From positions 1 to 40,485 of the forward strand of contig CAMDDQ010000001.1 of assembly GCA_945892765.1 (NCBI GenBank): 40,485 nt of DNA, written 5' to 3'. The position numbers and the translations under genes are program-made. Position 1 is the first letter of the stretch, and each line of letters starts with the position of its first letter. Under the pieces are notes generated by a model. That model saw only the letters and a list, made by a program, of their open reading frames with translations. It was not told the origin of the DNA and ran no database searches. Source of the stretch: Asaia bogorensis. GTDB lineage: Bacteria > Pseudomonadota > Alphaproteobacteria > CACIAM-22H2. Shown piece after piece: positions 7,108 through 25,342 of the stretch.

Positions 7108-7566
7108 TCAACGGTTGCTGATCTGGGTCATGGCCTCGCGGAGCTGCGCCGTCGTCTTTTCGAGGCGGCGGGCAAGTTCGCGCATGATCTCCACCGCCAT
7201 GGACGGAAATTCATTGATCAACCGGTAGAAGAGATCCTTGGCGATCATGAGCGTCTCGAGTTTGGACTTGGCGCGAACGGTCGCCGTGCGCGGCACGTCG
7301 CAGAGAATGGCGATTTCGCCGACGATGGCGTTGCGGCCGACCACGGCCACCGCCATTTCCCCCTTGGGCGTATTGACCAGAACCTGGGCCTCACCGCCGA
7401 TGATGATATAGGCGGCGTCGGCCATGTCGCCCTGCTTGAACAGCGCCTGTCCCGGCTCAAAGGTCAATCTTTGACTGGTGAAGGCCAGAAACTTGAGTTT
7501 CGCCGGCTCCACCTTCGCAAAGAGCGGAATGTTGCGAAGCAGCTCGACTTCTTCCTGCAACGACAC
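7108..7566 (-). CDS. Cyclic nucleotide-binding domain protein (single CNB domain, no HTH seen)
   Basis: LLRNIPLFAKVEPAKLKFLAFTSQRLTFEPGQALFKQGDMADAAYIIIGGEAQVLV...GRNAIVGEIAILCDVPRTATVRAKS; 152 aa. Confidence 0.88.
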   Translation of the reverse strand: MSLQEEVELLRNIPLFAKVEPAKLKFLAFTSQRLTFEPGQALFKQGDMADAAYIIIGGEAQVLVNTPKGEMAVAVVGRNAIVGEIAILCDVPRTATVRAKSKLETLMIAKDLFYRLINEFPSMAVEIMRELARRLEKTTAQLREAMTQISNR

Positions 7567-7582: not shown

Positions 7583-10234
7583 TTATTCGGCTGCCAGCAT
7601 TTCGTGGAGCGGCGCGCCTGGGCCTTCCAATTCGGCGAACTTGCCCTGAGACACGATCTTTCCGTCGCGCATGATGACGATGCGGTCGAAGGAGCGGGCG
7701 AACGCCGCCCGATGAAGAACCCACAATACTCCGCGGCCCTGAAGTTCGCGGAGAATGTTGTCCATGACTTTACCTTGCGCCTGGGTATCGAGCAGAGCCG
7801 TGGATTCGTTGCAGATCAACAATTGCGGCCGACGCAGCAAGGCGCGGGCAAGCGCCAGCTTTTGACGCTGCGCCGCGCTCATGCGTGAACCGCCCACGCC
7901 GACCGAAAAATCGATGCCGACTTCGATGATGGCGTCGCGAAGATCGAGTGTCGCCAAAACCTCGGAGATGACCTTGCCGAGGCGCACGCCCGCCTGGGCC
8001 TGGCCATAGGCGACCTTTCCGAACAGAATATTGTCCTGGAGCGTGCCCGCGGCGTTGTAGGAATCGGAGCGAAAGAACTCGACCGATTTCGCCAGGTTCG
8101 CCGGGAGGTTCGCCGCGAAGGCCGCCCGCGCCTCGAGCAGGCGGCGCTGCATCGGTTCGTCGATCAGACCCAAGCGATGGCGGGCCGGGATTAGTTTGAA
8201 GGGCAGCGACAAAAGCCGGGAACGGTCCTCCGGGCGTATTTCCGTCTGCGCGATCTTGGCGGTACGTCCAAGCAAAGCCTGAAATTCCGGCAGATCCTCG
8301 GAACTGATGAAGCTGTATTCGGCGAAAAATTCGTGTGTCGGCGGCAGACCGGCGAACAATTCGACCATGGTCTCGGCGACTTTCCGGCCCATCGCGATCA
8401 GATCGGAGGTCAGGCCAACCTTTTCCAGAACACTCAGCACATAGGCGTTTTCGGCCAATTTTTCGACTTCGAAAGCGGGGCCGACCTGAGTGCCGAAAAG
8501 CACGTTTTCGGCGACGGTCGCGTTGGTGTTGTACCGAGCCTCGTCGAAGGGCTCCACGAGGGCGGCCATCTCGCCTCCCTTCAGGCGTTCACGCAAGGCG
8601 GTCCGCGCTTCGAGAACACGCGCCGCCAGCGCCGGCCGCGCCTTGGGATCGATGGTGCCGCGCAGGCCGAATTGATAAACGTCGTCGTCCAAATCGACGA
8701 CCGCCAACATGCGGATGCAGCGCGCGGCGAGTTCCGCGGCATCACTGACGCCGGCCGCCGAATAGTCGATCCAGTCGGCCGTGATGTCGAAATCGGTATT
8801 GCCGGCACGCGTCGCCTCGACCAACCATTGTTTACGTAGCGCGGCGGTCGCCCCGTCGGGATTGGCCGCGATTCGCGGGCGTTGTTTAAGGACGTAGATC
8901 AGGTTCTCCCTGACCGTGCCGGTGAACAAATACGAACTCTGGCCGACATAAGCGATGCGCTGGGCCGAGCGCCATTCCGGCAGCGTCAGCAGATCGTCGC
9001 TGCCCAGTTGGATACGGCCCCCGCTCGGCGCCACGAGTCGGGCGATCGCGTTCGCCAGATGCTCCTTGCCCGATCCCGCCGGCCCGACAATCGCGATATG
9101 TTCGCTCAGCCCCATGTCGAAGGAGACGCCATCGACGAGTTTGCCACCGCCGTCGTCGCTGACCGCGAGGTTGGCAATGCCGAGACGATCGTCGGCGGAC
9201 GGCGTGGGCATGGTTTCCGGGGCGGGTTCCTGCAATTCCGCCGGCGCCATGCCCTCGGGCTGGAACTGTTCGATGACCTGTTCGTATTTGATCACCGCGT
9301 CGGCTTGGCTCTGATAGAAGGTGAGCAACTCCTTCCATGGTGGCGCCAAATCCTTGTAGGCGGCCAGCACGGCGACCAACGCGCCGATGCTGAGATCCCC
9401 GGCGATCACCAAATATCCGCCGAACAGATAAAAGAAAAAGGGCGTTAGCTGGGCAATGTTGCTGTTGAGCTGCTTGACCAAGAACTTGCGCTGGAAGATG
9501 TCGAAGCGGATGCGATAGATCGCGCCCATGCGTTCGGCGAAATCGGCGCGTTCGTAAGTCGACGTGCCGTGGACATGGACTTCGGCGATGCCCGAAACGG
9601 TGTCGCTGATTCGATCGGCGACCTTGCGAATGACTTTCACCCGCTCCTTGCCGAGCAGGTTCACTTTTCGCTGCATCTTGGGGATGACATAGGCCTGCAG
9701 CGGGTAGAGCGCGATGGCGAAGGTGCCCAGCAGCGGATCCTGCACAAACATGAAAAACAGCGCGGTCAGCAACAGCCCGCCCTGGTGCAGAGGCAGCACC
9801 AGCGCGTCGCCGATGAAGCCGCCCAACGCCTCCACTTCCGAGGTGATCATCGGAATGATCTCGCCTTGCGAGACCTTCCGGAAATGCGGCAGCGGAAAAC
9901 GCAGAATCCGGCTGTAGAGTTCGTACCGCAAACGCCGCAGCATACGCTCGCCGAGGCGCCCCTTCATGATGTTGATGTAGAACTTGAACCGGGCGTTGAT
10001 GAAGACCAAAGCCAAGAACACGAAACAGAGGGTGATCAGATAGGGCATCTGATCCAGCGACCAAAAATAGTAGTCTTGGGGAAAAGTCTTGCCCTGAATG
10101 GCACGGTTCACGATCGTCTTGGGCAGATCGAGAATGAAATAATAGAACGGCAGCGACACGCCCGTGACGAGCATTATGACGATCTGCTCTTTCAGGCTGT
10201 AGCGCAGGATGAACCGGTGGATGGTCGATTCCAT
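7583..10234 (-). CDS. Divergent ABC exporter: transmembrane domain plus degenerate nucleotide-binding domain with large internal insertion
   Basis: Start taken as MESTIHRFILRYSLKEQ (ATG at 10234). ABC_membrane-like N-terminus; HIAIVGPAGSGKEHL (Walker A), AYVGQSSYLFTGTVRENL (Q-loop), long insertion, GGSRMSAAQRQKLALARALLRRPQLLICNESTALLD (signature and Walker B), VLHR (H-loop). Confidence 0.85.
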   Translation of the reverse strand: MESTIHRFILRYSLKEQIVIMLVTGVSLPFYYFILDLPKTIVNRAIQGKTFPQDYYFWSLDQMPYLITLCFVFLALVFINARFKFYINIMKGRLGERMLRRLRYELYSRILRFPLPHFRKVSQGEIIPMITSEVEALGGFIGDALVLPLHQGGLLLTALFFMFVQDPLLGTFAIALYPLQAYVIPKMQRKVNLLGKERVKVIRKVADRISDTVSGIAEVHVHGTSTYERADFAERMGAIYRIRFDIFQRKFLVKQLNSNIAQLTPFFFYLFGGYLVIAGDLSIGALVAVLAAYKDLAPPWKELLTFYQSQADAVIKYEQVIEQFQPEGMAPAELQEPAPETMPTPSADDRLGIANLAVSDDGGGKLVDGVSFDMGLSEHIAIVGPAGSGKEHLANAIARLVAPSGGRIQLGSDDLLTLPEWRSAQRIAYVGQSSYLFTGTVRENLIYVLKQRPRIAANPDGATAALRKQWLVEATRAGNTDFDITADWIDYSAAGVSDAAELAARCIRMLAVVDLDDDVYQFGLRGTIDPKARPALAARVLEARTALRERLKGGEMAALVEPFDEARYNTNATVAENVLFGTQVGPAFEVEKLAENAYVLSVLEKVGLTSDLIAMGRKVAETMVELFAGLPPTHEFFAEYSFISSEDLPEFQALLGRTAKIAQTEIRPEDRSRLLSLPFKLIPARHRLGLIDEPMQRRLLEARAAFAANLPANLAKSVEFFRSDSYNAAGTLQDNILFGKVAYGQAQAGVRLGKVISEVLATLDLRDAIIEVGIDFSVGVGGSRMSAAQRQKLALARALLRRPQLLICNESTALLDTQAQGKVMDNILRELQGRGVLWVLHRAAFARSFDRIVIMRDGKIVSQGKFAELEGPGAPLHEMLAAE

Positions 10235-10380
10235 TTCGTTGCTCCCCGCCTCTCCGCCCGTGGCGGAGAGCGGTCCCCTTCTGTCTTTGGCCCCGGCCAC
10301 CTTAACCCACGACCCCGGATGGGTAAATGGCGCGGCTTCCGGCGTTGCGCGGAACGCGATGAACGAGTACTAGCCGGCGG

Positions 10381-12090
10381 ATGATCGTTCTTGGCATCAA
10401 TCCCGCCACCCACGACGCCGCAGCCGCGCTTTTCGACGATTATCGCCTGCTGGCCGCGGTCTCGCTCGAACGCCTGACCCGGCGCAAGGGTGACGGGAAA
10501 GGCGTACCGCTGGAATGTATCGCCGAGGTTCTCTCCATCGCCGGCATGTCGCCTGCCGATGTTGACATCGTCGTCAGCACACGCGGCACGGTGCCACGGC
10601 GTTATCTTCCCCATTTGCGGCGCCAGACCCTTGAGGAGTCGGGCGATGAATCCTCGGCGAGTCTGGCCGAGGAGATGCGCAAGGCGAGAGCTGTGAACGC
10701 CGACGGTTTCTTCGACTCAGCGATGTTCCGTGCCGAACACGGATTTCGGGCCGGCGTGCCGGTGCGGTTTGCTAATCACCACCGCGCGCACGCCCTGCCG
10801 GCGCTATTCTTCACACAATGGCCGGATGCGTTGCTGTACACGGCCGATGGCGGCGGCGACAACGTCCATTACAGCCATCGGGTGTTCTGCGAGGGCACGA
10901 TTGACACGCTGTTCGGCGACGACCGTTGGCTTTTGCCGGAACGGCGCGTGGACAGCCTCGGACTCGCTTATGCCTACGCCACCCAGGCATTGGGTTACCG
11001 CGCGCTTCGCCACGAGGGCAAACTGACGGGCCTGGCTGCGTTTGGCGAGCCCACCTTGATCGACGTGATGGCCCCCCACTTCCGCGTCGACGACGAAGGC
11101 CGGATCGACAGCGATTTCGAGAGTTATGGGGCGATGCGCCGCTTGATTTTTGCGCTGGCCGCGGGACAGAAGCCCCAAGATGTCGCGGCGTCCATCCAGA
11201 AACTGCTTGAGGATTTGATCCTCGGCTCGGTCACCCGCCTGCTCGAACGCCAGCCCGTCAGACATCTTGGACTTGCCGGCGGCGTCTTCGCCAATGTCAG
11301 GCTCAACCGCCTGCTGGCCCAACGCGCGCAGGTGGATGAGATCTTTGTCTTTCCCGCGATGAGCGACGATGGGCTTGCCGTTGGCGCGGTCCTGGAATTT
11401 CTGCTCGAGCGGGACGGCCTGGCGGCCTGGCTCGATCGCCGGCATCACCTCGATCATGTGTTTTTCGGCCGCGACCACGGCGCGGCCATCGACCGCGCGT
11501 TGACGGCCGCACCCGGCATCCGGCGCCTATCCGATCGGCCGGTGCCGGCCGCCGCCGAATTGCTGGCCGAAGGCCGCATCGTTGCCATCTTCAACGGCGG
11601 CATGGAATTCGGCCCCCGCGCGCTTGGCGCCCGCAGCATCCTTGCCGCCGCCTCCGACCGCAGGGTCAACGACACCTTGAACGCCCGGCTCGAGCGGACC
11701 GAGTTCATGCCCTTCGCGCCGGTCGTGCGTGACGTCGACGCGGCGCGGGTCTTCGATCTCGGGGCGGTTAATCGTTACGCCAGCCGGTTCATGACGATTA
11801 CCTGCTTGGTCCGCCCGGAGTGGCGGGAACGTATCCCCGGGGTCGTCCATGTCGACGGGACGGCCCGCCCGCAGGTCGCCGAAAGAAAGACAAACCCACT
11901 TTATTACGACATCCTGACCGAATATGAGGCACGCACCGGCCTGCCCGTCCTGGTCAACACCAGCTTCAACGTCCATGAAGAACCGATCGTGAACACACCA
12001 GAGGAATGCTGCCGCGCTTTGGCCGACGGGCGTATCGATTTTGTGGTCACCGCCTTGGGAGTTTATGGACCCGGCGAACGCCGAAAGTGA
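10381..12090 (+). CDS. Carbamoyltransferase (NodU/CmcH family)
   Basis: MIVLGINPATHDAAAALFDD...SLERLTRRK...LGLAYAYATQALGYRALRHEGKLTGLAAFGEP...LAGGVFANVRLNRLL...GRMEFGPRALGARSI-like (GGMEFGPRALGARSIL)...LVNTSFNVHEEPIVNTPEE. Confidence 0.95.
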   Translation: MIVLGINPATHDAAAALFDDYRLLAAVSLERLTRRKGDGKGVPLECIAEVLSIAGMSPADVDIVVSTRGTVPRRYLPHLRRQTLEESGDESSASLAEEMRKARAVNADGFFDSAMFRAEHGFRAGVPVRFANHHRAHALPALFFTQWPDALLYTADGGGDNVHYSHRVFCEGTIDTLFGDDRWLLPERRVDSLGLAYAYATQALGYRALRHEGKLTGLAAFGEPTLIDVMAPHFRVDDEGRIDSDFESYGAMRRLIFALAAGQKPQDVAASIQKLLEDLILGSVTRLLERQPVRHLGLAGGVFANVRLNRLLAQRAQVDEIFVFPAMSDDGLAVGAVLEFLLERDGLAAWLDRRHHLDHVFFGRDHGAAIDRALTAAPGIRRLSDRPVPAAAELLAEGRIVAIFNGGMEFGPRALGARSILAAASDRRVNDTLNARLERTEFMPFAPVVRDVDAARVFDLGAVNRYASRFMTITCLVRPEWRERIPGVVHVDGTARPQVAERKTNPLYYDILTEYEARTGLPVLVNTSFNVHEEPIVNTPEECCRALADGRIDFVVTALGVYGPGERRK

Positions 12091-12195: not shown

Positions 12196-12234
12196 GGGTC
12201 GGTCGTGAACGCTCGCTGGACGAGCGACCGACCC
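12196..12234. other. Two-tier inverted repeat in the carbamoyltransferase-GT intergenic region
   Basis: gggtcggtc (12196-12204) / gaccgaccc (12226-12234), enclosing gctcg-ctgga-cgagc (12211-12225). Confidence 0.6.
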
Positions 12235-12333
12235 GGAGGGTCGCCTTCCGATCGCGCCAATTTGTGCTTTTTTGCCAATCGGAGCCTGTGCCATAGTTGC
12301 GTCAACGAAGAACGCGGTTTCCGGGGGGGGGCC

Positions 12334-13557
12334 TTGAGCGGATACGTCGCCGGGGCGCGCATCTTGGTGTACAGCCACGACACGTTCGGGCTGGGGCACC
12401 TTCGTCGATGCCGCGCCATCGCCCATTCCCTGGTCAAACACGATCCCGACCTGTCGGTTCTGATCATTTCGGGCTCGCCCATCATTGGCAGCTTCGATTT
12501 CCGGGCGCGCGTGGATTTCGTTCGTATCCCCGGCGTGATCAAGCGCGGCGACGACGAATACGCCTCGCTCAACCTGTCGATCAATATTCAGCAGACACTC
12601 GCCATCCGCTCGTCGATCATTCAACACACCGCCGAACTCTTCGAGCCCGACCTGTTCTTGGTCGACAAGGAGCCGTTGGGGCTGCGCGGCGAGGTGCATG
12701 ACACGTTGACCATGCTCAAGGCCCGGGGCACCCCGCTGGTCCTGGGCCTGCGCGACGTCATGGACGAACCCGCGCTGCTCGGCGAGGAATGGCAACGCAA
12801 GAACGCCGTGCCCGCCTTGCGCGACCTCTACGACGAGGTTTGGGTTTATGGGTTGCCGCAGATCTGCGATCCGCTGGAGGGCATTGGCCTGCCGCGCTCG
12901 GCTCGACAGAAAGTGACCTATACCGGCTACCTGCCGCGCACGGTTTCGCCGGTTACCCCGCGCAGCCATCTGCCCGATTATTTCCAGGAACCCTACATCC
13001 TGGTAACCACCGGCGGTGGCGGCGACGGCGAGGTATTGATCGATTGGGTGCTGCGCGCCTATGAGGCCGACGGTGCCATGCGGCATCCGGCGCTGCTCGT
13101 GCTCGGGCCCTTCATGCCGCCGGAAATTCAGGCCGGTTTCATCGAACGGTCGCGCCGCCTGACCCGGGTTCAAGCCATCACCTTCGATACCCATATCGAG
13201 ACGTTGATGGCCAATGCCGTCGGCGTGGTGGCGATGGGCGGCTACAACACGTTCTGCGAAATCCTGTCATTCGATAAGCGTGCGTTGATCGTGCCGCGCA
13301 CGGTGCCGCGCATGGAACAATACATCCGGGCCACGCGCGCCGCCGATCTCGGCCTCATTCGAGTGCTGATCGACGACGGCGAACGGGACGCCCTGATGAT
13401 GGCGGCGGCGCTGCGCCGTTTGCCGGAGCAAGCCCCGCCGTCCGCGGTCGTGGTGCCCGGACTGCTCGACGGGCTGAAAAACGTCAACCGCAAGGTCGAC
13501 CGGTGGCTGTCGCCATCGCGGCCGGCGCTGGTTTCCGCCGCCGCCCGCCTCGCCTAG
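12334..13557 (+). CDS. MurG-like glycosyltransferase
   Basis: ARILVYSHDTFGLGHLRRCRAIAHSLVK...TYTGYLPR...ILVTTGGGGDG...VAMGGYNTFCEILSFDKRALIVPR. TTG at 12334 preferred over GTG at 12205, which lies inside a hairpin and gives an unconvincing N-terminus. Confidence 0.85.
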   Translation: MSGYVAGARILVYSHDTFGLGHLRRCRAIAHSLVKHDPDLSVLIISGSPIIGSFDFRARVDFVRIPGVIKRGDDEYASLNLSINIQQTLAIRSSIIQHTAELFEPDLFLVDKEPLGLRGEVHDTLTMLKARGTPLVLGLRDVMDEPALLGEEWQRKNAVPALRDLYDEVWVYGLPQICDPLEGIGLPRSARQKVTYTGYLPRTVSPVTPRSHLPDYFQEPYILVTTGGGGDGEVLIDWVLRAYEADGAMRHPALLVLGPFMPPEIQAGFIERSRRLTRVQAITFDTHIETLMANAVGVVAMGGYNTFCEILSFDKRALIVPRTVPRMEQYIRATRAADLGLIRVLIDDGERDALMMAAALRRLPEQAPPSAVVVPGLLDGLKNVNRKVDRWLSPSRPALVSAAARLA

Positions 13558-14888
13558 CGGTGGGCAGGCCCGCATTGGCGCAGCCGCAAACAGCAGGCAG
13601 CGGCCATGGAATCCCCGGCGACGCCACGATCGCCATCGTGCTCAAGGGTTACCCACGCCTGTCCGAGACGTTCATCGCGCAGGAAGTGCTGGGGCTGGAA
13701 CGCCGGGGGTTAGGCCTTCGCCTGGTTTCGCTGCGTCATCCCACCGACAAACATGTTCACCCCATCCATGGGTCGATCGTGGCCCGGGTCGATTACCTGC
13801 CCGAATATCTGTATCGGGAGCCGCTTCGCGTCCTGGCCGGATGGCGTGCTGCGCGCCGGCTGCCCGGTTATCAATCCGCCCGCGTGGCTTGGTTGGCCGA
13901 TCTCCGCCGCGATCCGACCCCCAACCGCATCCGGCGGTTCGGCCAAGCCTTGGTACTGGCCGCGGAGTTGCCGCCCGCGATCGGCCACCTTCACGCGCAT
14001 TTTCTGCACACGCCGGCCTCGGTGGCGCGCTACGCCGCCCTTCTGCGCGGGCTTGGATTTAGCGTTTCGGCGCATGCCAAGGACATCTGGACGATTCCGG
14101 AATGGGAAAAGCGCGAAAAGCTGAACGCCGCGGCATGGGCGGTCGTCTGCACGCGCGCCGGCCGCGATCACCTGGCCACGCTTGCCGCGATGCCCGGCAA
14201 GATCGAGCTGGTTTATCACGGCCTCGATTCCGCGCGTTTTCCCGCGCCACCCGCGCGACCGGCCCGCGACGGCGGCAACAACGATGATCCGGTGACGATC
14301 CTGTCGGTCGGCCGCGCCGTGGCAAAGAAGGGTTACGACGACCTTCTGGACGCCTTAGCTCTCTTGCCGCCGGCACTGTCTTGGCGCTTGGTGCATATCG
14401 GCGGGGGGGCGTTGATTCGCCGCCTCCGACGCCGCGCCGAACGCCTGGGGCTTTCCGACCGCATCGAATGGCGCGGGGCACTTGCCCACGATGCCGTGCT
14501 CGCGGCGTATCGATCCGCCGATCTCTTCGTGTTGGCCAGCCGCGTCGCCAAAGATGGAGATCGCGACGGCCTGCCCAATGTGCTGCTGGAAGCAGCGAGC
14601 CAGGGGTTGGGCTGCGTGGCGACCGAAATTTCCGGCATCCCGGAATTCATCAGCGACGGCCAAACCGGCGTCCTGGTGAAACCCAGGGAACCCGAGAAGC
14701 TCGCCGCGGCGCTGGCCGCCTTGATCGGCGATCCCTCCCGCCGCGAAACCCTGGGCAAAGCCGCGGCCCAGCGCGTCCGCGCCGATTTTGCGCTGGACCG
14801 CGGGATCGATCGGATCGCCGCCCGGCTGGTGGAAAGCGGCGGCCCGCAACGCGCCACCCTTCCCGGCGCGGGCCGCGCGGCGGCCTGA
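13503..14888 (+). CDS. Glycosyltransferase family 4-type protein
   Basis: IAIVLKGYPRLSETFIAQEVLGLERRG...LHAHFLHTPASVARYAALLRGLGFSVSAHAKDIW...LSVGRAVAKKGYDDLLDALALL...GLPNVLLEAASQGLGCVATEISGIPEFI. True start uncertain (GTG 13503 or TTG 13575). Confidence 0.88.
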   Translation: MAVAIAAGAGFRRRPPRLAVGRPALAQPQTAGSGHGIPGDATIAIVLKGYPRLSETFIAQEVLGLERRGLGLRLVSLRHPTDKHVHPIHGSIVARVDYLPEYLYREPLRVLAGWRAARRLPGYQSARVAWLADLRRDPTPNRIRRFGQALVLAAELPPAIGHLHAHFLHTPASVARYAALLRGLGFSVSAHAKDIWTIPEWEKREKLNAAAWAVVCTRAGRDHLATLAAMPGKIELVYHGLDSARFPAPPARPARDGGNNDDPVTILSVGRAVAKKGYDDLLDALALLPPALSWRLVHIGGGALIRRLRRRAERLGLSDRIEWRGALAHDAVLAAYRSADLFVLASRVAKDGDRDGLPNVLLEAASQGLGCVATEISGIPEFISDGQTGVLVKPREPEKLAAALAALIGDPSRRETLGKAAAQRVRADFALDRGIDRIAARLVESGGPQRATLPGAGRAAA

Positions 14889-14931
14889 ACACCGTCGACG
14901 ACGCCAACGCCCGAAATTCCCTCAGTCCGCC

Positions 14932-16083
14932 GTGCGTATCGCCTTTTATGCTCCGCTGAAACCGCCGACGCATCCAGTGCCGTCGGGTGACCGGCGCATG
15001 GCGCATTTGCTGATGGAGGCGATACGGCAGTCCGGCCATGTCGTTGAATTGGCGTGCCGATTCCGCAGTTACGACGGCGACGGAAACGCGGCGCGCCAGG
15101 CGCGGCTGCGACGCATCGGCCAGAGCATGGCGGCCCGTCTCGTGAAACGTTATGAGGCGGGCGAGCCGGAGCGACGGCCGGAGCTGTGGTTCACCTATCA
15201 TCTGTATCACAAGGCGCCGGATTGGCTGGGGCCGGCGATCAGCCGCGGCCTCGATATTCCCTATATCGCCGCGGAGGCCTCGTTCGCAGGCAAACAAGAG
15301 GGCGGGCGCTGGGCGGCCGGACATCGGGCCGCGGCCGCGGCGATAGAGGCCGCCGACATGATCGTCAATTTCAACCCGATCGACGCCGCCGGCGTGCGGC
15401 GTCTGCATGGCGACGACCGTCGGATGATCTCATTGCCGCCCTTCATCGAAGCCGCGCCGTTTCAAGCGGCGGCGTCGCGGCACCGCGACCGTCGCGAAGC
15501 CATCGGCAGACGTTTCGCCCTTGCCGCCGACCCGCCGCGTTTCCTGACCGTGGCCATGATGCGGCCGGGTGACAAACTTCAATCCTTTCGCCTGTTGGGG
15601 CTGGCGCTGCGCCAAATTCTCGACCTGCCCTGGCAGCTTCTGGTGATCGGCGAGGGACCGGCGCGCGCCATCGTCGAAAAATATCTGTCCGGGCTCGGAC
15701 CGGATCGAGTTTGTTTTGGCGGAGAACAGCCGCAAGAGGCCATGCCAGACATCTATGCCGGCTGCGACCTTTACGTTTGGCCGGCGATCGGCGAAGCCTA
15801 TGGCATGTCTTTTCTCGAAGCGCAGGCCGCCGGACTGCCGGCGATCGCCGGCGACAATGCCGGTGTCAGCGAGGTCGTTGACGGCAAGGCCGGGGCGTTG
15901 GTGCCGGCGGGCGATGTCGATGCCTTCGCCGCCGCCGTGCGACGGCTGGCAACGGCGCCGCGGGAATGGCCGGAAAGGCGCGTGGCGGCGCAGGCCTTCG
16001 TCGCCCACCGCCGCAGCCTGTCGGCGGCGCGGGTCGTGCTCGACGCCGCCATGGCGAGCGCGGTCGCGCGGCGGCGCCGATGA
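14932..16083 (+). CDS. Glycosyltransferase family 4-type protein
   Basis: GTG start MRIAFYAPLKPPTHPVPSGDRRMAHLLMEAIRQSGH...GCDLYVWPAIGEAYGMSFLEAQAAGLPAIAGDNAGVSEVVDGKAGALVPAGD. Confidence 0.88.
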   Translation: MRIAFYAPLKPPTHPVPSGDRRMAHLLMEAIRQSGHVVELACRFRSYDGDGNAARQARLRRIGQSMAARLVKRYEAGEPERRPELWFTYHLYHKAPDWLGPAISRGLDIPYIAAEASFAGKQEGGRWAAGHRAAAAAIEAADMIVNFNPIDAAGVRRLHGDDRRMISLPPFIEAAPFQAAASRHRDRREAIGRRFALAADPPRFLTVAMMRPGDKLQSFRLLGLALRQILDLPWQLLVIGEGPARAIVEKYLSGLGPDRVCFGGEQPQEAMPDIYAGCDLYVWPAIGEAYGMSFLEAQAAGLPAIAGDNAGVSEVVDGKAGALVPAGDVDAFAAAVRRLATAPREWPERRVAAQAFVAHRRSLSAARVVLDAAMASAVARRRR

Positions 16084-17798
16084 CCGCGCTCGCCCTGATC
16101 CGCCACGCGCCGACGACCTGGAACGAAACCGGGCGCATTCAAGGCCGGGAGGACACACCCTTAAGTGTGGCCGGCCGGCAGGAAGCCGCGGCCCGCCGGC
16201 TGCCCGCCGATTTCACCGGCTTCGACATCTTCGCCAGCCCGCTGAACCGGGCCATGGATACGGCTCGGCTGATGGGCCTCGACCCGCGGCTGGAGCCCAG
16301 GTTGATGGAAATGGATTGGGGGCGGTGGTCGGGCCGCACGCTCGCCGAACTGCGCGCTGAAGGCGGCGCAGCAACCGAGGACAACGAGGGGCGCGGCTTG
16401 GATTTCACGCCGCCCGGAGGCGAAAGCCCGCGCGATGTGCAGCGCCGCCTGGTGACCTGGTTCGCCGAAATCGCGCGGACCGGGCGGCCCGCCGTCGCCA
16501 TCACCCATAAGGGTGTCATCCGGGCAGCGCTGGCTCTGGCGACCGGCTGGGACATGACGGGAAAGGCGCCGGCCAAGCTTGACTGGTCGGCGGCGCAACT
16601 TTTCGACCTCGACGACAACGGTAGGCCGAGAGTCGCACGCCTCAACCTGCCGCTCCGGCGCCAAACCGGCCGCGGTCGCGTGATGTTCTATGTCCAACAT
16701 CTGTTGGGCACCGGGCACCTGCGCCGCGCCGCGGTGATTTCCGGCGCCTTGGTCAAGGCGGGCTTCGACGTCGATTTGGTCTCCGGCGGTCTGCCCATTC
16801 CCGATGTCGACATCGGCGGCGCCAAATTGTGGCAATTGCCGCCGCTACGCAGCTATGACGACACCTTCAAGATCCTGATCGACGACAAGGGGGCGGTCGC
16901 CGACGATGCCTACAAGCAGCTTCGCCGCACCCAGCTGCTCGATATCTTCCACACGCGCCATCCCGATGTGTTGATGTTCGAGCTGTTCCCCTTCGGCCGC
17001 CGCACGCTGCAGTTCGAATTGTTGCCGCTGCTGGAGGACGCTCATACGCGCCGCCCGCGACCCTTGATCGTGTCATCGGTGCGCGATGTGTTGACCCGCG
17101 AAAAGAAGCCGGACCGCGTCACGGCCATGGCCGATGTCGCCCGCGCCCGTTTCGATCACGTGCTCGTGCATGGGGACCCTCGTTTGATCGGGTTCGAAGC
17201 GAGTTTCGCCGAAGCCCACCGCGTCGCCGACAAGCTGACCTATACCGGCTATGTCGTGGCGCCGCCGATGCCGGGGCCGCCAACAGGCGAGGTCGTGGTT
17301 TCCCATGGCGGCGGCGCCATGAGCGCACATTTGCTGGAAGCGGCGGCGGCGGCGCGGGGCCGCTCGCGCCTCCGCGGCACCTGGCGGCTGTTGCTCGGTC
17401 CCAATCTCGACCGGGAGAGCGTCGAGGGTCTGAATCGCATGGCCAGCGACGGCGTCGTCGTGGAGCAGTCGCGCGCCGATTTCCGGCGGCTGCTCGCCGG
17501 GTGCGATGTCTCGATTTCCCAGGGCGGCTATAATACGACCATGGATATGCTGGTGGCGAACACACGTTCGGTCATCGTGCCTTTCGAGGGCCGCGACGAA
17601 ACCGAGCAACTCGTGCGCACGGAAAAGCTCGCCGCCATGGGCCTCACGCTTCTGCTCCGCGAACGCGACTTAACGCCAGAGTCTTTGGCCCGCGCCGCTG
17701 ACGCCGCGGACGCCATGAAACGTCCGGACGCCACGCTCGACCTGGAAGGCGCGCCCGCGACCGCTCGTCGCCTCGGCGAATGGCTCGAACGGCGTTAG
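16080..17798 (+). CDS. Fusion protein: histidine phosphatase domain (N) plus MurG-like glycosyltransferase domain (C)
   Basis: ATGA overlap with the preceding GT; LIRHAPTTWNETGRIQGREDTPLSVAGR...FASPLNRAMDTARLM...ITHKGVIRAAL, then without a stop VMFYVQHLLGTGHLRRAAVISGALVKAGFDVDLVSGG...SISQGGYNTTMDMLVANTRSVIVPFEG. Confidence 0.88.
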   Translation: MTALALIRHAPTTWNETGRIQGREDTPLSVAGRQEAAARRLPADFTGFDIFASPLNRAMDTARLMGLDPRLEPRLMEMDWGRWSGRTLAELRAEGGAATEDNEGRGLDFTPPGGESPRDVQRRLVTWFAEIARTGRPAVAITHKGVIRAALALATGWDMTGKAPAKLDWSAAQLFDLDDNGRPRVARLNLPLRRQTGRGRVMFYVQHLLGTGHLRRAAVISGALVKAGFDVDLVSGGLPIPDVDIGGAKLWQLPPLRSYDDTFKILIDDKGAVADDAYKQLRRTQLLDIFHTRHPDVLMFELFPFGRRTLQFELLPLLEDAHTRRPRPLIVSSVRDVLTREKKPDRVTAMADVARARFDHVLVHGDPRLIGFEASFAEAHRVADKLTYTGYVVAPPMPGPPTGEVVVSHGGGAMSAHLLEAAAAARGRSRLRGTWRLLLGPNLDRESVEGLNRMASDGVVVEQSRADFRRLLAGCDVSISQGGYNTTMDMLVANTRSVIVPFEGRDETEQLVRTEKLAAMGLTLLLRERDLTPESLARAADAADAMKRPDATLDLEGAPATARRLGEWLERR

Positions 17799-17805
17799 CT
17801 CCTCG

Positions 17806-18585
17806 ATGAGTGACTGGGCCGCCCTGACCGACGAACTCGGCTTGTGGACCCGAAGCGGGCAGGTCCCGACTTTCTGGTGGCGCGATGACGATGCCGCGGC
17901 GCACACGCCGGCACTGGATCGGCTGTTGGACCTGCGCGCGCGCTTGAATCTGCCTCTGTCGCTGGCGACCGTCCCCGGCAAGACGGAGCCCGGCTTGGTC
18001 AAACGCCTGAGCCGCGAAGCCGGAGTCGCCGTCCTTCAACATGGCTGGATGCACACAAACCACGCCCCGGCCGGCGAGAACAAGGCCGAACTCGGCGCGC
18101 ACCGCACGCTGGCGGCCGTCCTTGCCGATGTTGCCCAAGGCCGGCGGCAGATGGATCGGCTGTTCGGCGAGGCCTGGCGCCCGATCCTGGTGCCACCCTA
18201 TAACCGTATCGCGCCGGCCGTGGTGCGAGCTTTGCCCGGGCTGGGTTTCCTCGGGCTGTCGACCGACCAGCCGCGCCCGGCGCGCGCGGTAATGCCGGGC
18301 ATGGTCCAGGTCAACACCCATGTCGACATCGTCGATTGGCGTGGCACGCGCGGCTTTGTCGGCGAGGCCGGCGCGATCGAACGCGCCGTCAGCCACCTTC
18401 GTGGCCGCCGCGCGGCCGGCGCCGACGCCGCCGAACCGACCGGCCTTTTGACCCACCATCTTGTCCATGACGAGGGCTGCTGGCGTTTCATCGCGGATTT
18501 CGCCGGCCGGACCACCGCCCATCCCGGTGCCCGCTGGCTGTCGGCGGAGGAAGCCTTCGCGCCCGCGCCCGTGGCAACCGGATGA
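17806..18585 (+). CDS. Polysaccharide deacetylase-like protein
   Basis: FWWRDDDAAAHTPALDRLLDLRARLNLPLSLATVPG...VAVLQHGWMHTNHAP...ILVPPYNRIAPAVVRALPGLGFLGLST. Confidence 0.8.
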   Translation: MSDWAALTDELGLWTRSGQVPTFWWRDDDAAAHTPALDRLLDLRARLNLPLSLATVPGKTEPGLVKRLSREAGVAVLQHGWMHTNHAPAGENKAELGAHRTLAAVLADVAQGRRQMDRLFGEAWRPILVPPYNRIAPAVVRALPGLGFLGLSTDQPRPARAVMPGMVQVNTHVDIVDWRGTRGFVGEAGAIERAVSHLRGRRAAGADAAEPTGLLTHHLVHDEGCWRFIADFAGRTTAHPGARWLSAEEAFAPAPVATG

Positions 18586-18642
18586 CCTCCGACGAGCCGC
18601 CGATGCCGCCGCCCCTTCGCGCCCGCGCCCGTGGCAACCGGA
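18554..18642. repeat. 29-bp perfect direct repeat, copies 60 bp apart
   Basis: ccttcgcgcccgcgcccgtggcaaccgga at 18554-18582 and 18614-18642. Confidence 0.95.
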
Positions 18643-19172
18643 CGCCCGCCGCAGTGACCCTCGGCAGCGGCCTCAGCGTCCACCGTTATCCGCGCCGAGC
18701 TTTGACCGGCGACTATGTTCGCGCCGGGGTTGGTGTCGTCCTGACCGGCGGGCCCCTGCTGTTCGCGCCGACCGCGCCGGTCGCATCGGCGGTGCTGGGC
18801 GTTCTCGTCCTGGTCTTCACCGGATTTGGCGCCATCACGGCTTTGCGGCAAGTCAGCAGCGTGCGCCTTTCCGATGAAGAAATCTCGCATTGGGGTTTGA
18901 ATCGCGTTAGGCTTGGCTGGCGAAATATAGAAAGCGTTAGGCTTCGATATTTCTCGACCAGGCACGACCACTCGGGGGGGTGGATGCAGTTGCGCTTGTC
19001 AGCCTGGGGTCGAAGTTTGACGCTCGAATCGAGCATCGACGGGTTCCTCGAAATCGCCACGCGAGCCGCGGCCGCGGCGGAAACCAACCGATTGCGGTTG
19101 AGCCGCGCGACGATTGGCAATTTCGCGGCGCTCGGCATCGTTTGCCGCGCCGGCGACACGCACGGGTATTGA
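18582..19172 (+). CDS. Membrane protein of unknown function, possible PH-like fold
   Basis: ATGA overlap with the deacetylase gene; two hydrophobic segments (YVRAGVGVVLTGGPLLFAP, ASAVLGVLVLVFTGFGAI) then ISHWGLNRVRLGWRNIESVRLRYF... Confidence 0.65.
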   Translation: MTSDEPPMPPPLRARARGNRTPAAVTLGSGLSVHRYPRRALTGDYVRAGVGVVLTGGPLLFAPTAPVASAVLGVLVLVFTGFGAITALRQVSSVRLSDEEISHWGLNRVRLGWRNIESVRLRYFSTRHDHSGGWMQLRLSAWGRSLTLESSIDGFLEIATRAAAAAETNRLRLSRATIGNFAALGIVCRAGDTHGY

Positions 19173-19185
19173 AAGAACACCCCGC

Positions 19186-21087
19186 ATGGATCTCCTGACC
19201 GTTAACGATCTCAAGATTGACTTTCAGGTCCATGACAGCGTCATTCGGGCCGTTGACGGCGTTTCCTTTCGCGTACGTCCGGGAACTACCGTGGCCCTGG
19301 TCGGCGAATCCGGTTCTGGAAAATCGGTCGTCTCGCAAGCCATCATGGGCATCCTGCCAGCCAATGGCCGCATAACGGGCGGCGAAATTCTGTTCCGGGA
19401 TCCCGATCGCGACCTGGGCGGTCGCCGCCGGCAGGAGATCTGCGACATCGCCACGCTCAGTCCCGATGGCCGCACTTTCCGCAATATCCGCGGCGGCCGT
19501 ATTTCGATCATTTTCCAGGAACCGATGACCTCGCTGTCGCCGCTGCACACCATCGGCGACCAAATCGGCGAAGCGCTTCACCTGCATCGCACCGTCGGCG
19601 CCGCCGAAGGCCGCGAAAAAGTCATGGAGATGCTGGGGTTGGTCGGCTTCGAGAATCCGACCAAGGCGCTGCGCACCTATCCATTCGAGCTGTCGGGCGG
19701 GCTGCGCCAACGTGCCATGATCGCGATGGCCTTGGTTTGCCGGCCGGCGTTGTTGATCGCCGACGAACCGACGACCGCCTTGGACGTCACCATTCAGGCG
19801 CAGATCCTGAAGCTGTTGAACGACCTGCAGGCGGAATTGCATATGGCCGTCTTGATTATCACCCACGATCTGGGGGTGGTGGCCAATGTCGCCGAGGAAG
19901 TCGTGGTGCTACATCGCGGCAAGGTCATGGAGCGCGGCACCGTCGAGGACATCTTCCGCGCTGCCGCCCATCCCTATCTGAAGGCGCTGTTGCGCGCGGT
20001 GCCTCGGTTCAACATGAAGGCGGGCGAACGTCTGGTGCCGCTGCGGAAGATCACCCACGAGGCAAGCCCGCTCTTGAAGGCAAAGGAACCATGGCCGAAG
20101 GGCGCCGATGACGCCGGCCCTCTGCTCGAGGTGCGGGGGCTGACCAAACGCTTCCGCCTACGCAAATCCGCGTTCAAGTTGGCGCCCAGTGTCGATGTGG
20201 CGGCGGTTGGCGATGTGAGCTTCGACATCGCCCGTGGCGAATGTTTCGGGCTGGTCGGCGAAAGCGGCTGCGGCAAGACGACGTTGTCGAAGATGATCAT
20301 GCGGGCGTTGACGCCGGATGCCGGGACCATTCGCTTTAACGATCGCGGCCGCATGGTCGATGTGCTGGCCTTGGCGGGAAAGGACCTTTTAGGGTTTCGG
20401 CCCCGCGTTCAATTCATCTTCCAGGATCCGTTCGGATCGCTCAACCCGCGGATGACGGTTTTCGACATCATCACCGAACCGCTGGCGATTCACGGCATCG
20501 GGGATGCGACTTCGCGGGCCGAGATGGCGCGCGAATTGATGCGCCTCGTCGGCCTCGATGCGCGCCACCTCAACCGTTATCCGCACAGCTTTTCCGGCGG
20601 CCAGCGCCAGCGTATTGGCATCGCGCGCGCGCTCGCGCTCAAACCCGACCTTTTGATTTGCGACGAGCCGGTCTCCGCCCTCGACGTGTCGATCCAGGCC
20701 CAAATCCTCAACCTGCTGAAAGACCTACAGAGCGAGCTGGGACTGACCTATCTGTTCGTTTCGCACAATCTTGCGGTGGTCGATTACATCGCGCACCGGA
20801 TCGCGGTGATGTGCAGCGGCCGAATCGTGGAGATCGCGCCGCGCGATGCCCTGTTTCGCAGTCCGGTTCACCCCTATACGAAGGCGTTGTTGTCGGCGGT
20901 CCCCAAGCCCGACCTAGATGACCGTTTGGACTTGGGAGCCCTGATGGAAGGCCGCGCGTCGAAACCCGAGGCGTGGCCGTGGCCGTTCACCGCGAATGGC
21001 AAAATCGAACCGGGTTTGATCGAGGTCGACACCGGCCATTACGTACGCGCGGACACAGATTGGGACCGAAAGGAACTCGTCGCATGA
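19186..21087 (+). CDS. Fused dual-ATPase subunit of peptide/nickel-type ABC transporter (YejF/DppDF-like)
   Basis: [15 protein letters not shown] start; two complete NBDs: GESGSGKSV...[32 protein letters not shown] and [12 protein letters not shown]...[32 protein letters not shown]. Confidence 0.95.
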
Positions 21088-23018
21088 CCAGCCCGCATGC
21101 ATCGCGCAGCCTCGCTGCGATTCTTTTCTTCGCCGGCGCCCTCACCCTGGGCGCGCCCGCGCGAGCCGTCGAGCTGATCGAGACACCCGGCCTGTATGAC
21201 ATGGTCGCTGCCGGCAAGTTGCCGGGGGTGGCCAAACGTGCGCCGGCGGCGCCGGGGATCGTCGATGTCGTGGGGACGCCTCGTTCCGGCGGAGAATTAC
21301 GCGTGCTGATGGGCCGGGCCCAGGATGTGCGCATGATGGTCGTGTATGGCTACTCGCGTTTGGTTGGCTACACGCCCGATTTCAAGATTTTGCCCGACAT
21401 CGCCGAACGTCTGGACATCGAAGACACCCGCGTCTTTACGTTCAAACTGCGCGCCGGCCATCGCTGGTCGGACGGCCGTCCCTTCACGGGAGAGGATTTT
21501 CGCTATTTCTGGGAAGACGTCGCGCTCAACAAAAACCTCTCGCCCGCCGGACCGCCGAGCCAAATGATGGTCCGCGGCAAGGCGCCGAAATTCGCCTTGA
21601 TCGACGAAACGACGGTGCGTTTTTCTTGGGATGAACCTAACCCGGAATTCGTCGCGGCGCTGGCCGGCGCCGCCCCGCTTTATATTTATCGCCCGGCCCA
21701 CTACCTGAAGCAGTTTCACGAGAAATACGCGGACAAGGACAAGCTGGCCGAGGTCGTGAAAGCGCGCGGCGTACGCAATTGGGCCGCCCTTCACAACCGT
21801 GTCGACAACCAATACCGCAACGACAACCCAGACCTGCCAACGCTCGATCCGTGGGTGCTGTCGACCCGGCCGCCGGCCGACCGTTTCGTCTTCGAGCGCA
21901 ATCCCTATTATCACCGCGTCGACAGCGCGGGCCGGCAGCTACCTTATCTCGACCGCGTGGTCATGAACATCGCCGACCCGAAGCTGGTCCCGGCCAAGAC
22001 CGGGGCCGGCGAAGCCGATTTGCAGGCCCGTTATGTCAGCTTCAACAACTACACCTTCCTTAAACAGGCGGCGAACCGCAACAATTACCAAGTCCATTTG
22101 TGGCGAACGGCGCGGGGTGCCCATCTAGCACTTTACCCCAATCTCAATGTCAACGACCCGGTATGGCGCAAGCTGATTCGCGATGAACGCTTCCGCCGCG
22201 CCCTGTCGCTGTCCATCGACCGCCACGAAATCAACCAAGTCATCTATTTCGGGCTTGCCCTCGAAGGCGGCAATACCGTGCTGCCGGACAGCCCGCTCTC
22301 CAAGCCGAATTACCGCACGTCTTGGGCGACGCTGGACATCAAGCGGGCCAACGCGCTGCTCGATGAAATTGGCCTGACCAAGCGCAACGACAAGGGTGTC
22401 CGGCTGCTTCCCGACGGGCGACCGCTCGAAATCATCGTGGAGACATCGGGCGAGGAGGTCGAGCAGACCGACGTGCTCGAACTCATCCACGATTCCTGGA
22501 TGAAGGCGGGCGTGAAGTTGTACGCTAAGCCGTCGCAGCGCGAGGTTCTCCGCAACCGTGTTTTCGCGGGCAAGACCGTGATGTCGATCTGGTACGGTTT
22601 CGAAAACGGCGTGCCCACCGCCGATATGAGCCCGATGGCGCTGGCGCCGACAGCCCAGGACAGCCTGCAATGGCCGAAATGGGGGCAGCATTACGATTCC
22701 GCCGGCAAGGGCGGCGAACCCGTCGATATGCCCTTGGCCAAGGAGCTGCTCACGCTCGTCGACGAGTGGCGCAAGGCGACGAGCGCCGAGGGCCGGGAAA
22801 GAATCTGGCATCGGATGTTGTCCATCCACGCCGACCAAGTGTACTCGATCGGGCTGGTGGGCGGCGTGCTGCAGCCGGTGATCGTCAACAACCGCCTGCG
22901 CGGCGTTCCGGAAAAGGGCATCTTCAACTTCGAGCCCGGCGCCTTCTTCGGCATCTACCACCCCGACACCTTCTGGTGGGCGGCTCCGAACGAGACCGCA
23001 GAGGCCGTGAAGAAGTGA
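21084..23018 (+). CDS. ABC transporter substrate-binding protein, family 5
   Basis: Signal peptide; YSRLVGYTPDFKILPDIAERLDIEDTRVFTFKLRAGHRWSDGRPFTGEDFRYFWEDV...LSLSIDRHEINQVIYFGLA. Confidence 0.94.
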   Translation: MTSPHASRSLAAILFFAGALTLGAPARAVELIETPGLYDMVAAGKLPGVAKRAPAAPGIVDVVGTPRSGGELRVLMGRAQDVRMMVVYGYSRLVGYTPDFKILPDIAERLDIEDTRVFTFKLRAGHRWSDGRPFTGEDFRYFWEDVALNKNLSPAGPPSQMMVRGKAPKFALIDETTVRFSWDEPNPEFVAALAGAAPLYIYRPAHYLKQFHEKYADKDKLAEVVKARGVRNWAALHNRVDNQYRNDNPDLPTLDPWVLSTRPPADRFVFERNPYYHRVDSAGRQLPYLDRVVMNIADPKLVPAKTGAGEADLQARYVSFNNYTFLKQAANRNNYQVHLWRTARGAHLALYPNLNVNDPVWRKLIRDERFRRALSLSIDRHEINQVIYFGLALEGGNTVLPDSPLSKPNYRTSWATLDIKRANALLDEIGLTKRNDKGVRLLPDGRPLEIIVETSGEEVEQTDVLELIHDSWMKAGVKLYAKPSQREVLRNRVFAGKTVMSIWYGFENGVPTADMSPMALAPTAQDSLQWPKWGQHYDSAGKGGEPVDMPLAKELLTLVDEWRKATSAEGRERIWHRMLSIHADQVYSIGLVGGVLQPVIVNNRLRGVPEKGIFNFEPGAFFGIYHPDTFWWAAPNETAEAVKK

Positions 23019-23114
23019 CCGGCGCAATCTCGTCCGTGCGATGCACCCCGGGAGTCCGATGACGTCCGCCCCGGCATTTCGCCTTTCCTGAAACCAAACA
23101 GAGCGTCGCGTCCA

Positions 23115-24113
23115 GTGCTGGTCTATTCCATCCACCGCCTGCTGATCATGATTCCGACGTTGCTCGCGATCAGCATCATCGTCTTCATCATCATCCAACT
23201 GCCGCCGGGTGATTACCTCACCACTTATATCGCCGAGTTGCAGTCACAGGGCGAGGCGGTCAACGCCGATAAAATCGCCTTCCTGCGCGAGCAATACGGA
23301 CTCGACCGGCCGCTGATCGAACAATACTTCCGCTGGGTATTCGGCCTCCTGCAGGGAGATCTCGGTTTTTCCTTCGAGTTCAACCTGCCAGTGAACCAGG
23401 TGATTGGCGACCGTATGCTGCTTACCTTCCTGGTGTCCTTCGCGACGGTGCTGTTCACCTATGTCGTCGCCTTTCCCATCGGCGCCTATTCGGCGACGCA
23501 TCAATATAGCTGGGGCGATTACGGCCTGACCCTCCTGGGCTTCCTTGGGCTGGCCACCCCAAGCTTCCTGCTGGCGCTGGTCCTTCTGTATTTCGCCAAC
23601 GTCATGTTCGGCACCTCGATTGGCGGATTGATGGACCCCGAATTTATCGGTCAGCCCTGGGGGTGGGAGAAACTTCTGTCGGTGCTGGAGCATCTCTGGG
23701 TGCCGGTCATCGTCATCGGCACCTCGGGGACGGCGGGCATGGTCCGCAGGCTACGCGCCAATCTCCTGGACGAACTTCAGAAGCAATATGTGTTGACCGG
23801 ACGGGCCAAGGGCCTACCGCCGGGGCGCCTTTTGCTCAAATATCCGCTGCGCATGGCACTCAATCCCTTTATCGCCGATATCGGGACGTTGCTCCCGGCG
23901 ATGTTGTCGGGCGCCGCGATCGTGTCGGTTGTTCTGTCGCTGCCGACCAACGGCCCCATGCTGTTGTCGGCTTTGCGCAGCCAGGACATGTATCTGGCCG
24001 GTTCCTTTCTGATGATCGAGGCGTGCCTGATCGTTGTCGGCGTGTTCGTGTCGGACATGGCGCTGGCCGTGCTCGATCCGCGCATCCGCTTCCGCGGCGG
24101 ACAGGCCCGATGA
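23115..24113 (+). CDS. Peptide-type ABC transporter permease (DppB/YejB-like)
   Basis: VYSIHRLLIMIPTLLAISIIVFIIIQLPPGDYLTTYIAE...ANLLDELQKQYVLTGRAKGLP. Confidence 0.94.
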   Translation: MLVYSIHRLLIMIPTLLAISIIVFIIIQLPPGDYLTTYIAELQSQGEAVNADKIAFLREQYGLDRPLIEQYFRWVFGLLQGDLGFSFEFNLPVNQVIGDRMLLTFLVSFATVLFTYVVAFPIGAYSATHQYSWGDYGLTLLGFLGLATPSFLLALVLLYFANVMFGTSIGGLMDPEFIGQPWGWEKLLSVLEHLWVPVIVIGTSGTAGMVRRLRANLLDELQKQYVLTGRAKGLPPGRLLLKYPLRMALNPFIADIGTLLPAMLSGAAIVSVVLSLPTNGPMLLSALRSQDMYLAGSFLMIEACLIVVGVFVSDMALAVLDPRIRFRGGQAR

Positions 24114-25282
24114 ACCGGCCGAAGCCAACCGCGCCGGGGCTTGCCCATTTCGTTTCGCCCGCGCCTTTCGATGCCGGCGCGAGCGAGGCGATGTCGGCCG
24201 AACTCGAACATTATTACCTGGCGTCGCAGTGGCGCATGATGTGGTGGAAGTTCCGCCGGCATCGGCTGGCGGTGATCTCGGGCGCCATCCTTGCCCTGCT
24301 TTATGCCTCGATCCTCATCAGCGAATTCCTTGCGCCCTACGAGTTGCACACGCGCAATACCGATTTCATCTATGCGCCGCCACAATCGATCCATTTTTTT
24401 CACGAGGGGCGATTCGTCGGGCCCTTCGTCTATGGGTATAACTACAACCTCAACCTTGAAAACCTCCGCCGCGAATACACCGAGGATACAACGCGGGTTC
24501 AGCCGATCCGCTTTTTCTGCACCGGCGATGCCTACGAATTCTGGGGTCTGATCCCGGGTAACATTCACCTGATGTGCCCGGCGCCGGGCGGGACGCTCTT
24601 CCTTCTCGGGACCGATCGCCTGGGGCGCGATCTCATGTCGCGCATGTCCTATGGCGCGCGCATTTCGCTGACCATCGGAATCGTGGGCATCACGATCAGC
24701 TTTTTCTTGGGCATCGTCCTGGGCGGGCTCGCCGGTTACTACGGCGGCTGGGTGGATCATGTTGTGCAGCGGACGATCGAAATCATCCGATCATTCCCGG
24801 AATTGCCGCTGTGGATGGCGCTGTCAGCCGCGCTTCCCGTGAGCTGGAGCCCGATTCTGATCTATTTCGGCATCACGCTGATCCTGGGGCTGATCGACTG
24901 GACCGGGCTGGCGCGGGCCGTGCGCTCGAAATTGCTGGCCCTGCGCGAGGAAGATTTCGCCACGGCCGCGGTTCTGATGGGGGCGTCGCCGCGGCGTGTC
25001 ATCGGCCGGCATCTCTTGCCCAGCTTCATGAGCCATCTGATCGCTTCAGCCACGCTGTCTATTCCCGCGATGATCCTGGGCGAAACGGCGCTGTCCTTTC
25101 TCGGCCTCGGCCTGCGGCCGCCGGTGACGAGTTGGGGTGTCCTGCTGACCGAGGCGCAAAACATCAACGTCGTAGCGCTTTATCCTTGGTTGCTTTTGCC
25201 TTGCGCGCCGGTGATTGTCGCCGTTCTTGCGTTCAACTTTTTTGGAGATGGCTTGCGCGACGCCGCCGATCCGTACAAATAG
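24110..25282 (+). CDS. Peptide-type ABC transporter permease (DppC/YejE-like)
   Basis: ATGA overlap; FLLGTDRLGRDLMSRMSYGARISLTIGIVGI...ALREEDFATAAVLMGASPRRVIGRHLLPSFMSHLI...GETALSFLGLGLRPPVTSWGVLL. Confidence 0.95.
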   Translation: MNRPKPTAPGLAHFVSPAPFDAGASEAMSAELEHYYLASQWRMMWWKFRRHRLAVISGAILALLYASILISEFLAPYELHTRNTDFIYAPPQSIHFFHEGRFVGPFVYGYNYNLNLENLRREYTEDTTRVQPIRFFCTGDAYEFWGLIPGNIHLMCPAPGGTLFLLGTDRLGRDLMSRMSYGARISLTIGIVGITISFFLGIVLGGLAGYYGGWVDHVVQRTIEIIRSFPELPLWMALSAALPVSWSPILIYFGITLILGLIDWTGLARAVRSKLLALREEDFATAAVLMGASPRRVIGRHLLPSFMSHLIASATLSIPAMILGETALSFLGLGLRPPVTSWGVLLTEAQNINVVALYPWLLLPCAPVIVAVLAFNFFGDGLRDAADPYK

Positions 25283-25298
25283 AACCCATGCGAGCGCC

Positions 25299-25327
25299 GT
25301 CGCTTACGGGAAGCGACAGATTTTTCG
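25299..25327 (+). terminator. Possible rho-independent terminator between permease and second substrate-binding protein
   Basis: gtcgctt-acggg-aagcgac (25299-25317) followed by agattttt. Confidence 0.4.
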
Positions 25328-25342
25328 GGGGGCAAACCGGAC

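Follow-up and report, generated by a model that had tools for sequence, protein, structure and literature searches.

The window analyzed here, i.e. the whole stretch of 40,485 nucleotides from Asaia bogorensis, carries on its minus strand a gene (7583-10234) for a protein of 883 amino acids, referred to below as pseudo-ABC, in which the transmembrane domain (TMD) of an ABC exporter is joined to a degenerate and expanded nucleotide-binding domain (NBD), as indicated by the open reading frame, Pfam domains, homologs and an AlphaFold2 model. The reading frame is free of stops, and spans either 7583-10300(-) from a GTG or 7583-10234(-) from an ATG, the latter start being the one common to the homologs. 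The TMD covers residues 1-328 (9251-10234, minus strand) and is identified by the ABC_membrane domain (PF00664, residues 62-290, E 1.9e-21), by long helices in the model and by its clade in a membrane-domain tree. The ABC_tran domain (PF00005) is broken into two matches, so that one TMD and one NBD are present, as an earlier note made from the sequence had stated. For the AlphaFold model, which draws on 73 sequences of the family, the mean pLDDT was 87.5, and Foldseek searches with the whole model gave only ABC exporters among the matches listed; Pfam, model and Foldseek together identify the transmembrane domain as that of a type I/IV ABC exporter. No curated subfamily fits it, since none of the 25 NCBIfam ABC exporter models listed (MsbA, CydCD, PglK, HlyB and others) reached its cut-off, the top match being MsbA with 201.1 bits against a cut-off of 602. 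PADLOC and PHROG scans yielded only generic matches to ABC and cyclic-nucleotide-binding-domain proteins, and public records label family members 'ABC transporter ATP-binding protein' or similar.

The most conspicuous departure from a canonical exporter is the length of the NBD. Between the Q-loop residue Q432 and the first signature residue, M785, lie 352 residues, compared to 56 in all canonical exporters examined, 11 in number and drawn from related genomes with the window's own among them, and to the roughly 50-60 expected of such domains. The excess is consequently about 296 residues, close to the 280 extra residues read from the sequence earlier, when the separation had been put at some 340. 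The insert lies in the helical subdomain at approximately residues 450-729 (8048-8887, minus strand), as judged from the spacing excess, conservation in the family and its order in the model, where its pLDDT is about 93; a model of the insert alone, made without an alignment, was too poor to use (pLDDT 35.6). Three copies of a motif found next to the Q-loop, already recognized in the earlier note, were located on the minus strand at 8894-8920 (GTVRENLIY, residues 439-447), 8492-8518 (TVAENVLFG) and 8018-8044 (TLQDNILFG). The latter two belong to longer duplicated stretches, copy A (residues 535-609, 8408-8632) and copy B (residues 694-766, 7937-8155), which match each other over 72 columns with E 3.3e-15 in a profile-profile comparison (hhalign) and share one and the same order of helices and short strands in the AlphaFold model. 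When the repeats were compared as units by the same approach, unit 2 matched unit 3 with E 5.5e-12, and unit 1 gave weaker matches to unit 3 (E 4e-5) and unit 2 (E 1.5e-4). A triplication of the full Q-loop-to-signature segment was rejected, as the C-terminal part of unit 3, with the signature helix, reached only E 0.03 and 0.13 against the other units, and hence the repetition is limited to parts of the segment. An unrelated inserted domain was likewise rejected, given that no Pfam domain matched inside the insert and that it contains repeats of the neighboring NBD segment. The insert motifs ENLLFG, DNILFG and RHRL are near-invariant across the family and, together with SFISxDDLP, rank among the best-conserved features outside the membrane domain. 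The profile repeats and the order in the model indicate that the helical subdomain has been enlarged, at least partly through tandem duplication of the segment that follows the Q-loop, and that the insert is not an obvious foreign domain.

All ATP-site motifs are off-consensus in the window copy, as had been read earlier, and an alignment of 109 homologs extends this to the family. The Walker A motif GPAGSGKE (residues 384-391, 9062-9085, minus strand as for all motifs here) has Glu in place of the expected Ser/Thr, with Asp or Glu at this position in 93 of the 109 homologs and K[S/T] in only two, and the preceding Lys is shared by 63 homologs, 40 others having Arg. In the Q-loop region (IAYVGQS, residues 427-433, 8936-8956) the Gln is kept in only 26 homologs. 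The signature reads MSAAQ (residues 785-789, 7868-7882) instead of LSGGQ, and neither SGG nor SGGQ occurs in any of the 109. In the Walker B motif LLICNE (residues 805-810, 7805-7822) Asn replaces the Asp, which is absent from 103 homologs (98 have Asn or Ser), leaving DE in three. Not one homolog has a canonical Walker A, signature and Walker B, or even two of the three intact. The catalytic Glu and the H-loop His (residue 841, 7712-7714), described earlier as retained, are indeed present in the window copy but are no features of the family, being found in 71 and 54 of the 109 homologs, respectively. It would be conceivable that the protein still hydrolyzes ATP at an active site of unusual make-up, considering that many homologs keep the P-loop Lys and the Glu after Walker B and that the window copy has both as well as the H-loop His. 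This is very improbable in view of the acidic side chain that replaces the Mg-coordinating Ser/Thr, the lost Walker B Asp and the frequent exchange of the P-loop Lys for Arg, and a recognizable P-loop is moreover absent from most of the divergent fused members listed below (L094 keeps GK). From what is known of ABC ATPases, both ATP binding and hydrolysis are predicted to be lost, and on the motif counts we are highly confident that pseudo-ABC represents a conserved ATPase-dead family. Of the two earlier proposals, that of a partly duplicated NBD with altered ATPase activity holds for the duplicated NBD fragment, but 'altered' understates the predicted loss; that of a regulatory or structural ABC protein holds in part, as the substitution pattern in the 109 homologs points to a regulatory or non-ATPase role.

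The frame of the signature, Leu-Ser-x-x-Gln, is well preserved (Leu in 104, Ser/Thr in 99 and Gln in 107 of 109 homologs), so that pseudo-ABC could still donate a signature to some partner. This raises the alternative of a degenerate half of a heterodimeric, ATP-driven exporter, in which an unlinked canonical half would supply Walker A and B, and pseudo-ABC the signature through its L-S/T-x-x-Q-R-Q frame. Exporters with one degenerate site (e.g. TM287/288, TAP, MRPs, Pdr5 and CFTR) are common and have similarly lost Walker B, signature and H-loop residues; as described in a review of degenerate exporters (PMC7756269), they keep one working site, within a heterodimer or a full transporter. Pseudo-ABC differs in having a single NBD with all motifs lost and no evident partner. 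Its flanks contain no conserved canonical half-transporter, only peptide-importer ATPases and sporadic NBDs, the signature glycines are gone, and the divergent fused members have lost the signature as well, which makes this alternative unlikely. An 877-residue upstream open reading frame seen in some loci was dismissed as an ABC partner; it has no ABC match and looks antisense over glycosyltransferase genes.

About 110 full-length homologs, co-linear, intact and with the same architecture and degenerate motifs, were found across Alphaproteobacteria. Among 61 related genomes searched, 33 had stop-free, co-linear homologs that were full-length or nearly so, with 32-97% identity, with the exception of one genome (G007) in which the match covers only the N-terminal half. 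Named genomes, when scanned, contributed 485 confirmed matching stretches, of which the best 80 were taken further; members were seen in Azospirillum, Skermanella, Thalassobaculum, Nisaea, Inquilinus, Sneathiella, Tistrella and many uncultured Alphaproteobacteria. Plasmid carriage was seen in 262 records, from Rhizobium, Sinorhizobium, Ensifer, Phyllobacterium, Azospirillum, Ruegeria and Sulfitobacter. The family thereby ranges from Rhodospirillales to rhizobial plasmids and includes model strains (Rhizobium etli CFN 42, Sinorhizobium meliloti, Azospirillum), and in a sample of the phylum strong matches were confined to the window's own class. No close homolog lacking the insert or having canonical motifs was found. 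Among three congeners, dN/dS was 0.06-0.08 for the whole gene and about 0.08-0.10 for the insert, indicating that the gene is maintained under purifying selection. Local decay, a frameshift or an assembly chimera would have fitted off-consensus motifs confined to one genome; with the same stop-free architecture in about 110 intact, co-linear homologs, closed genomes and plasmids included, and such low dN/dS values, this explanation is refuted and retains practically no probability. In the record of the pSymB homolog of S. meliloti 1021 (L139, about 841.7-844.4 kb), the matches fall in two different reading frames and the copy thus looks frame-shifted, and the homolog of S. meliloti SM11 (L142) is in one frame throughout.

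Immediately downstream of pseudo-ABC, at 7108-7566 on the minus strand, lies a gene for a stand-alone cyclic-nucleotide-binding-domain (CNBD) protein of 152 amino acids. It has the cNMP_binding fold (PF00027, E 6.4e-20), the only domain given by Pfam, and the C-terminal HTH of CRP/FNR-type regulators was not found in it. By a strict count, the CNBD gene directly follows pseudo-ABC in 103 of the 108 loci with enough flanking sequence, the other five including one pair about 620 bases apart as well as fused or contig-end cases. The phosphate-binding cassette of the CNBD is intact, with Gly83 and Arg93 in 134/134 and Glu84 in 126/134 sequences, and the protein aligns with the domains of cGMP kinase, PKA (cAMP) and the SthK channel. 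The membrane part proposed to be regulated is an ABC exporter domain here, and not a K+ channel as in SthK-type proteins. In a number of divergent members (L094, L109, L128-L130, L132, L133, L136 and L141) the CNBD is fused to the C-terminus of pseudo-ABC, which is strong evidence that the two act together. Two of these (L094:7884-11606 and L109:5333-8905) are four-domain fusions of an ABC membrane domain, a degenerate NBD with the insert, a CNBD and a GGDEF-like domain devoid of the GGDEF motif. From the gene pairing and the fusions, pseudo-ABC is probably regulated by the ligand of the CNBD. We infer this ligand to be a cyclic nucleotide, although CNBD folds may take others, as the CNBD of HetC binds ppGpp and not cAMP (PMC10986499). 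Two adenylate/guanylate cyclase genes occur in the same neighborhood on a Mesorhizobium plasmid, and by raw count cyclase homologs were found near six further loci. HetC of Nostoc, in which an ABC exporter fold is joined to a CNBD required for function (PMC10986499), is also the nearest precedent for the combination seen here. In HetC the CNBD is N-terminal, a C39 peptidase is present and the ATPase Glu is essential, whereas in the pseudo-ABC family the CNBD is separate or C-terminal, no C39 peptidase was detected by Pfam, and the ATPase, with its degenerate motifs, is predicted to be dead.

A sister family lacks the NBD altogether. These proteins, of about 315-360 amino acids, occur in several related genomes and have ABC_membrane as their sole meaningful Pfam match. 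Examples are L144-L149 and L160-L162 (e.g. L145:3793-4773), from genomes that carry the long form too. They score 128-213 bits against the membrane domain of pseudo-ABC, compared to at most 67 bits for canonical exporters, and in the membrane-domain tree they form one clade with the pseudo-ABC family (support 100/100) to the exclusion of the canonical exporters; within this clade, the sister group has a support of 87/92. When 190 genomes of the class were searched, matches at E 1e-30 or better were of the long or the short form, and none was of the canonical form of about 600 residues. Of the 13 genomes that have the short form, 12 have the long one too, and in the remaining genome a second match is cut by the contig end. 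No NBD gene adjoins the sister genes, except for an unrelated UvrA-like fragment in one locus. These observations support the view that the TMD works without ATP, possibly as a heteromer.

On its other side, and diverging from it, pseudo-ABC adjoins a glycosyltransferase cluster on the plus strand, whose members turn up in the flanking sequence of 41-45 out of 47 long loci. The first gene, here called GT1, encodes a divergent GT28-like glycosyltransferase (12205-13557; within 8 kb in 41 of 47 loci) and is followed by a GT4-type, EpsE-like enzyme (13503-14888; 45 of 47), a second GT4-type glycosyltransferase linked in the same cluster (14788-16083) and a protein combining a histidine phosphatase with a GT28-like part (15966-17798; 45 of 47). 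GT1 is present in all 33 genomes with pseudo-ABC compared to one of the 28 without, or 11/11 versus 1/28 when counted by family (Fisher p 7e-9), bearing in mind that shared ancestry inflates such counts. In two genomes (G044 and G055) both genes are present yet non-adjacent, and in a few loci, e.g. of Sneathiella and Tistrella, the glycosyltransferases lie away from pseudo-ABC. The rhizobia keep a common order, namely peptide-type ABC importer, three glycosyltransferases, pseudo-ABC and CNBD. Taken together, it is likely that pseudo-ABC serves the linked glycosyltransferase pathway.

A NodU-like carbamoyltransferase gene (10381-12090) separates pseudo-ABC from the cluster; among the loci examined it was seen in this position only in the window's genus, and elsewhere the two are usually adjacent. 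Two further cluster proteins (17806-18585 and 18582-19172), matched by no Pfam or NCBIfam model, have homologs in 39 and 29 of the 47 long loci, respectively. After the glycosyltransferases comes a peptide-type ABC importer (an ATPase, two SBP_bac_5 proteins and a permease; 19114-26845), and a related importer adjoins the same cluster on Rhizobium and Sinorhizobium plasmids and, in Azospirillum lipoferum, lies next to the fused form of pseudo-ABC. In Rhizobium leguminosarum 3841, the putative efflux permease pRL110043 is reported to be necessary for root attachment (PMC11406972); by synteny and position only, it may correspond to the MFS gene that neighbors the ABC-CNBD pair in R. etli.

In their half-transporter layout of TMD followed by NBD, and in their glycan context, the homodimeric lipid and glycolipid flippases of the MsbA/PglK type resemble pseudo-ABC, in agreement with the curated and structural matches above. 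They are set apart from it by their canonical ATP motifs, the absence of the approximately 296 extra helical-subdomain residues, and the lack of a near-constant CNBD partner. Our working interpretation, tentative and at somewhat below even odds, is that pseudo-ABC is an ABC exporter that has become a membrane protein with a dead ATPase, regulated by a cyclic nucleotide and serving a glycan pathway, with the TMD as a gated passive route. The helical subdomains of ABC exporters contact the coupling helices of the TMD. Pseudo-ABC would form a homodimer, or pair with the NBD-less sister where this is present, and the expanded helical subdomains could keep the dead NBDs joined in the absence of ATP and serve as the docking site of the CNBD. 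When the CNBD binds its ligand, these subdomains might then pass the signal on and open or close the passive route, the putative cargo being the product of the linked glycosyltransferases, a glycolipid or a glycan. In its most specific version, i.e. an ATP-uncoupled exporter gated by a cyclic or related nucleotide via the CNBD and moving a glycolipid passively, the proposal is a possibility that we consider rather doubtful.

A sensor or transducer, rather than a transporter, would account for the data almost as well. The TMD would in that case bind a membrane or periplasmic ligand, for example the glycolipid that the pathway produces. Through the dead NBD and the repeats of its insert, this state would be passed on to the CNBD, and in L094 and L109 also to the GGDEF-like domain, as feedback on the glycan pathway. 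The fusions to a C-terminal CNBD and to a degenerate GGDEF domain are arranged in the manner of a receptor, no energy source remains in the protein, NBD-less sister proteins exist, and glycosyltransferases and cyclases adjoin. The GGDEF fusions are nevertheless restricted to two loci, both without the motif, and the CNBD is in most genomes a separate protein lacking an output domain, so that it would fit an input better than an output. We regard the sensor as a less probable alternative, and lean, with reservations and just short of an even chance, towards the passive gated flippase or conduit.

The earlier reading of this DNA had missed the CNBD partner, its fusion to pseudo-ABC in divergent members, the sister family without an NBD and the link to glycosyltransferases, and no published description of the family was found in the open-access literature searched. 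This family of bacterial membrane pumps is widespread and has apparently been described nowhere so far. Transport driven by ATP is the defining trait of ABC exporters, and here is a family with no recognizable working ATP site and a nucleotide sensor as its constant companion, in which a pump may have been converted into a signal-gated gate or sensor. If the gated-conduit reading is true, the ABC exporter fold would act here as a ligand-gated conduit or scramblase, and the path taken by pseudo-ABC would end in the NBD-less sister family. The family thus offers a natural test of what an exporter membrane domain is able to do without ATP, and a new candidate target of bacterial cyclic-nucleotide signaling that is tied to a glycan pathway.
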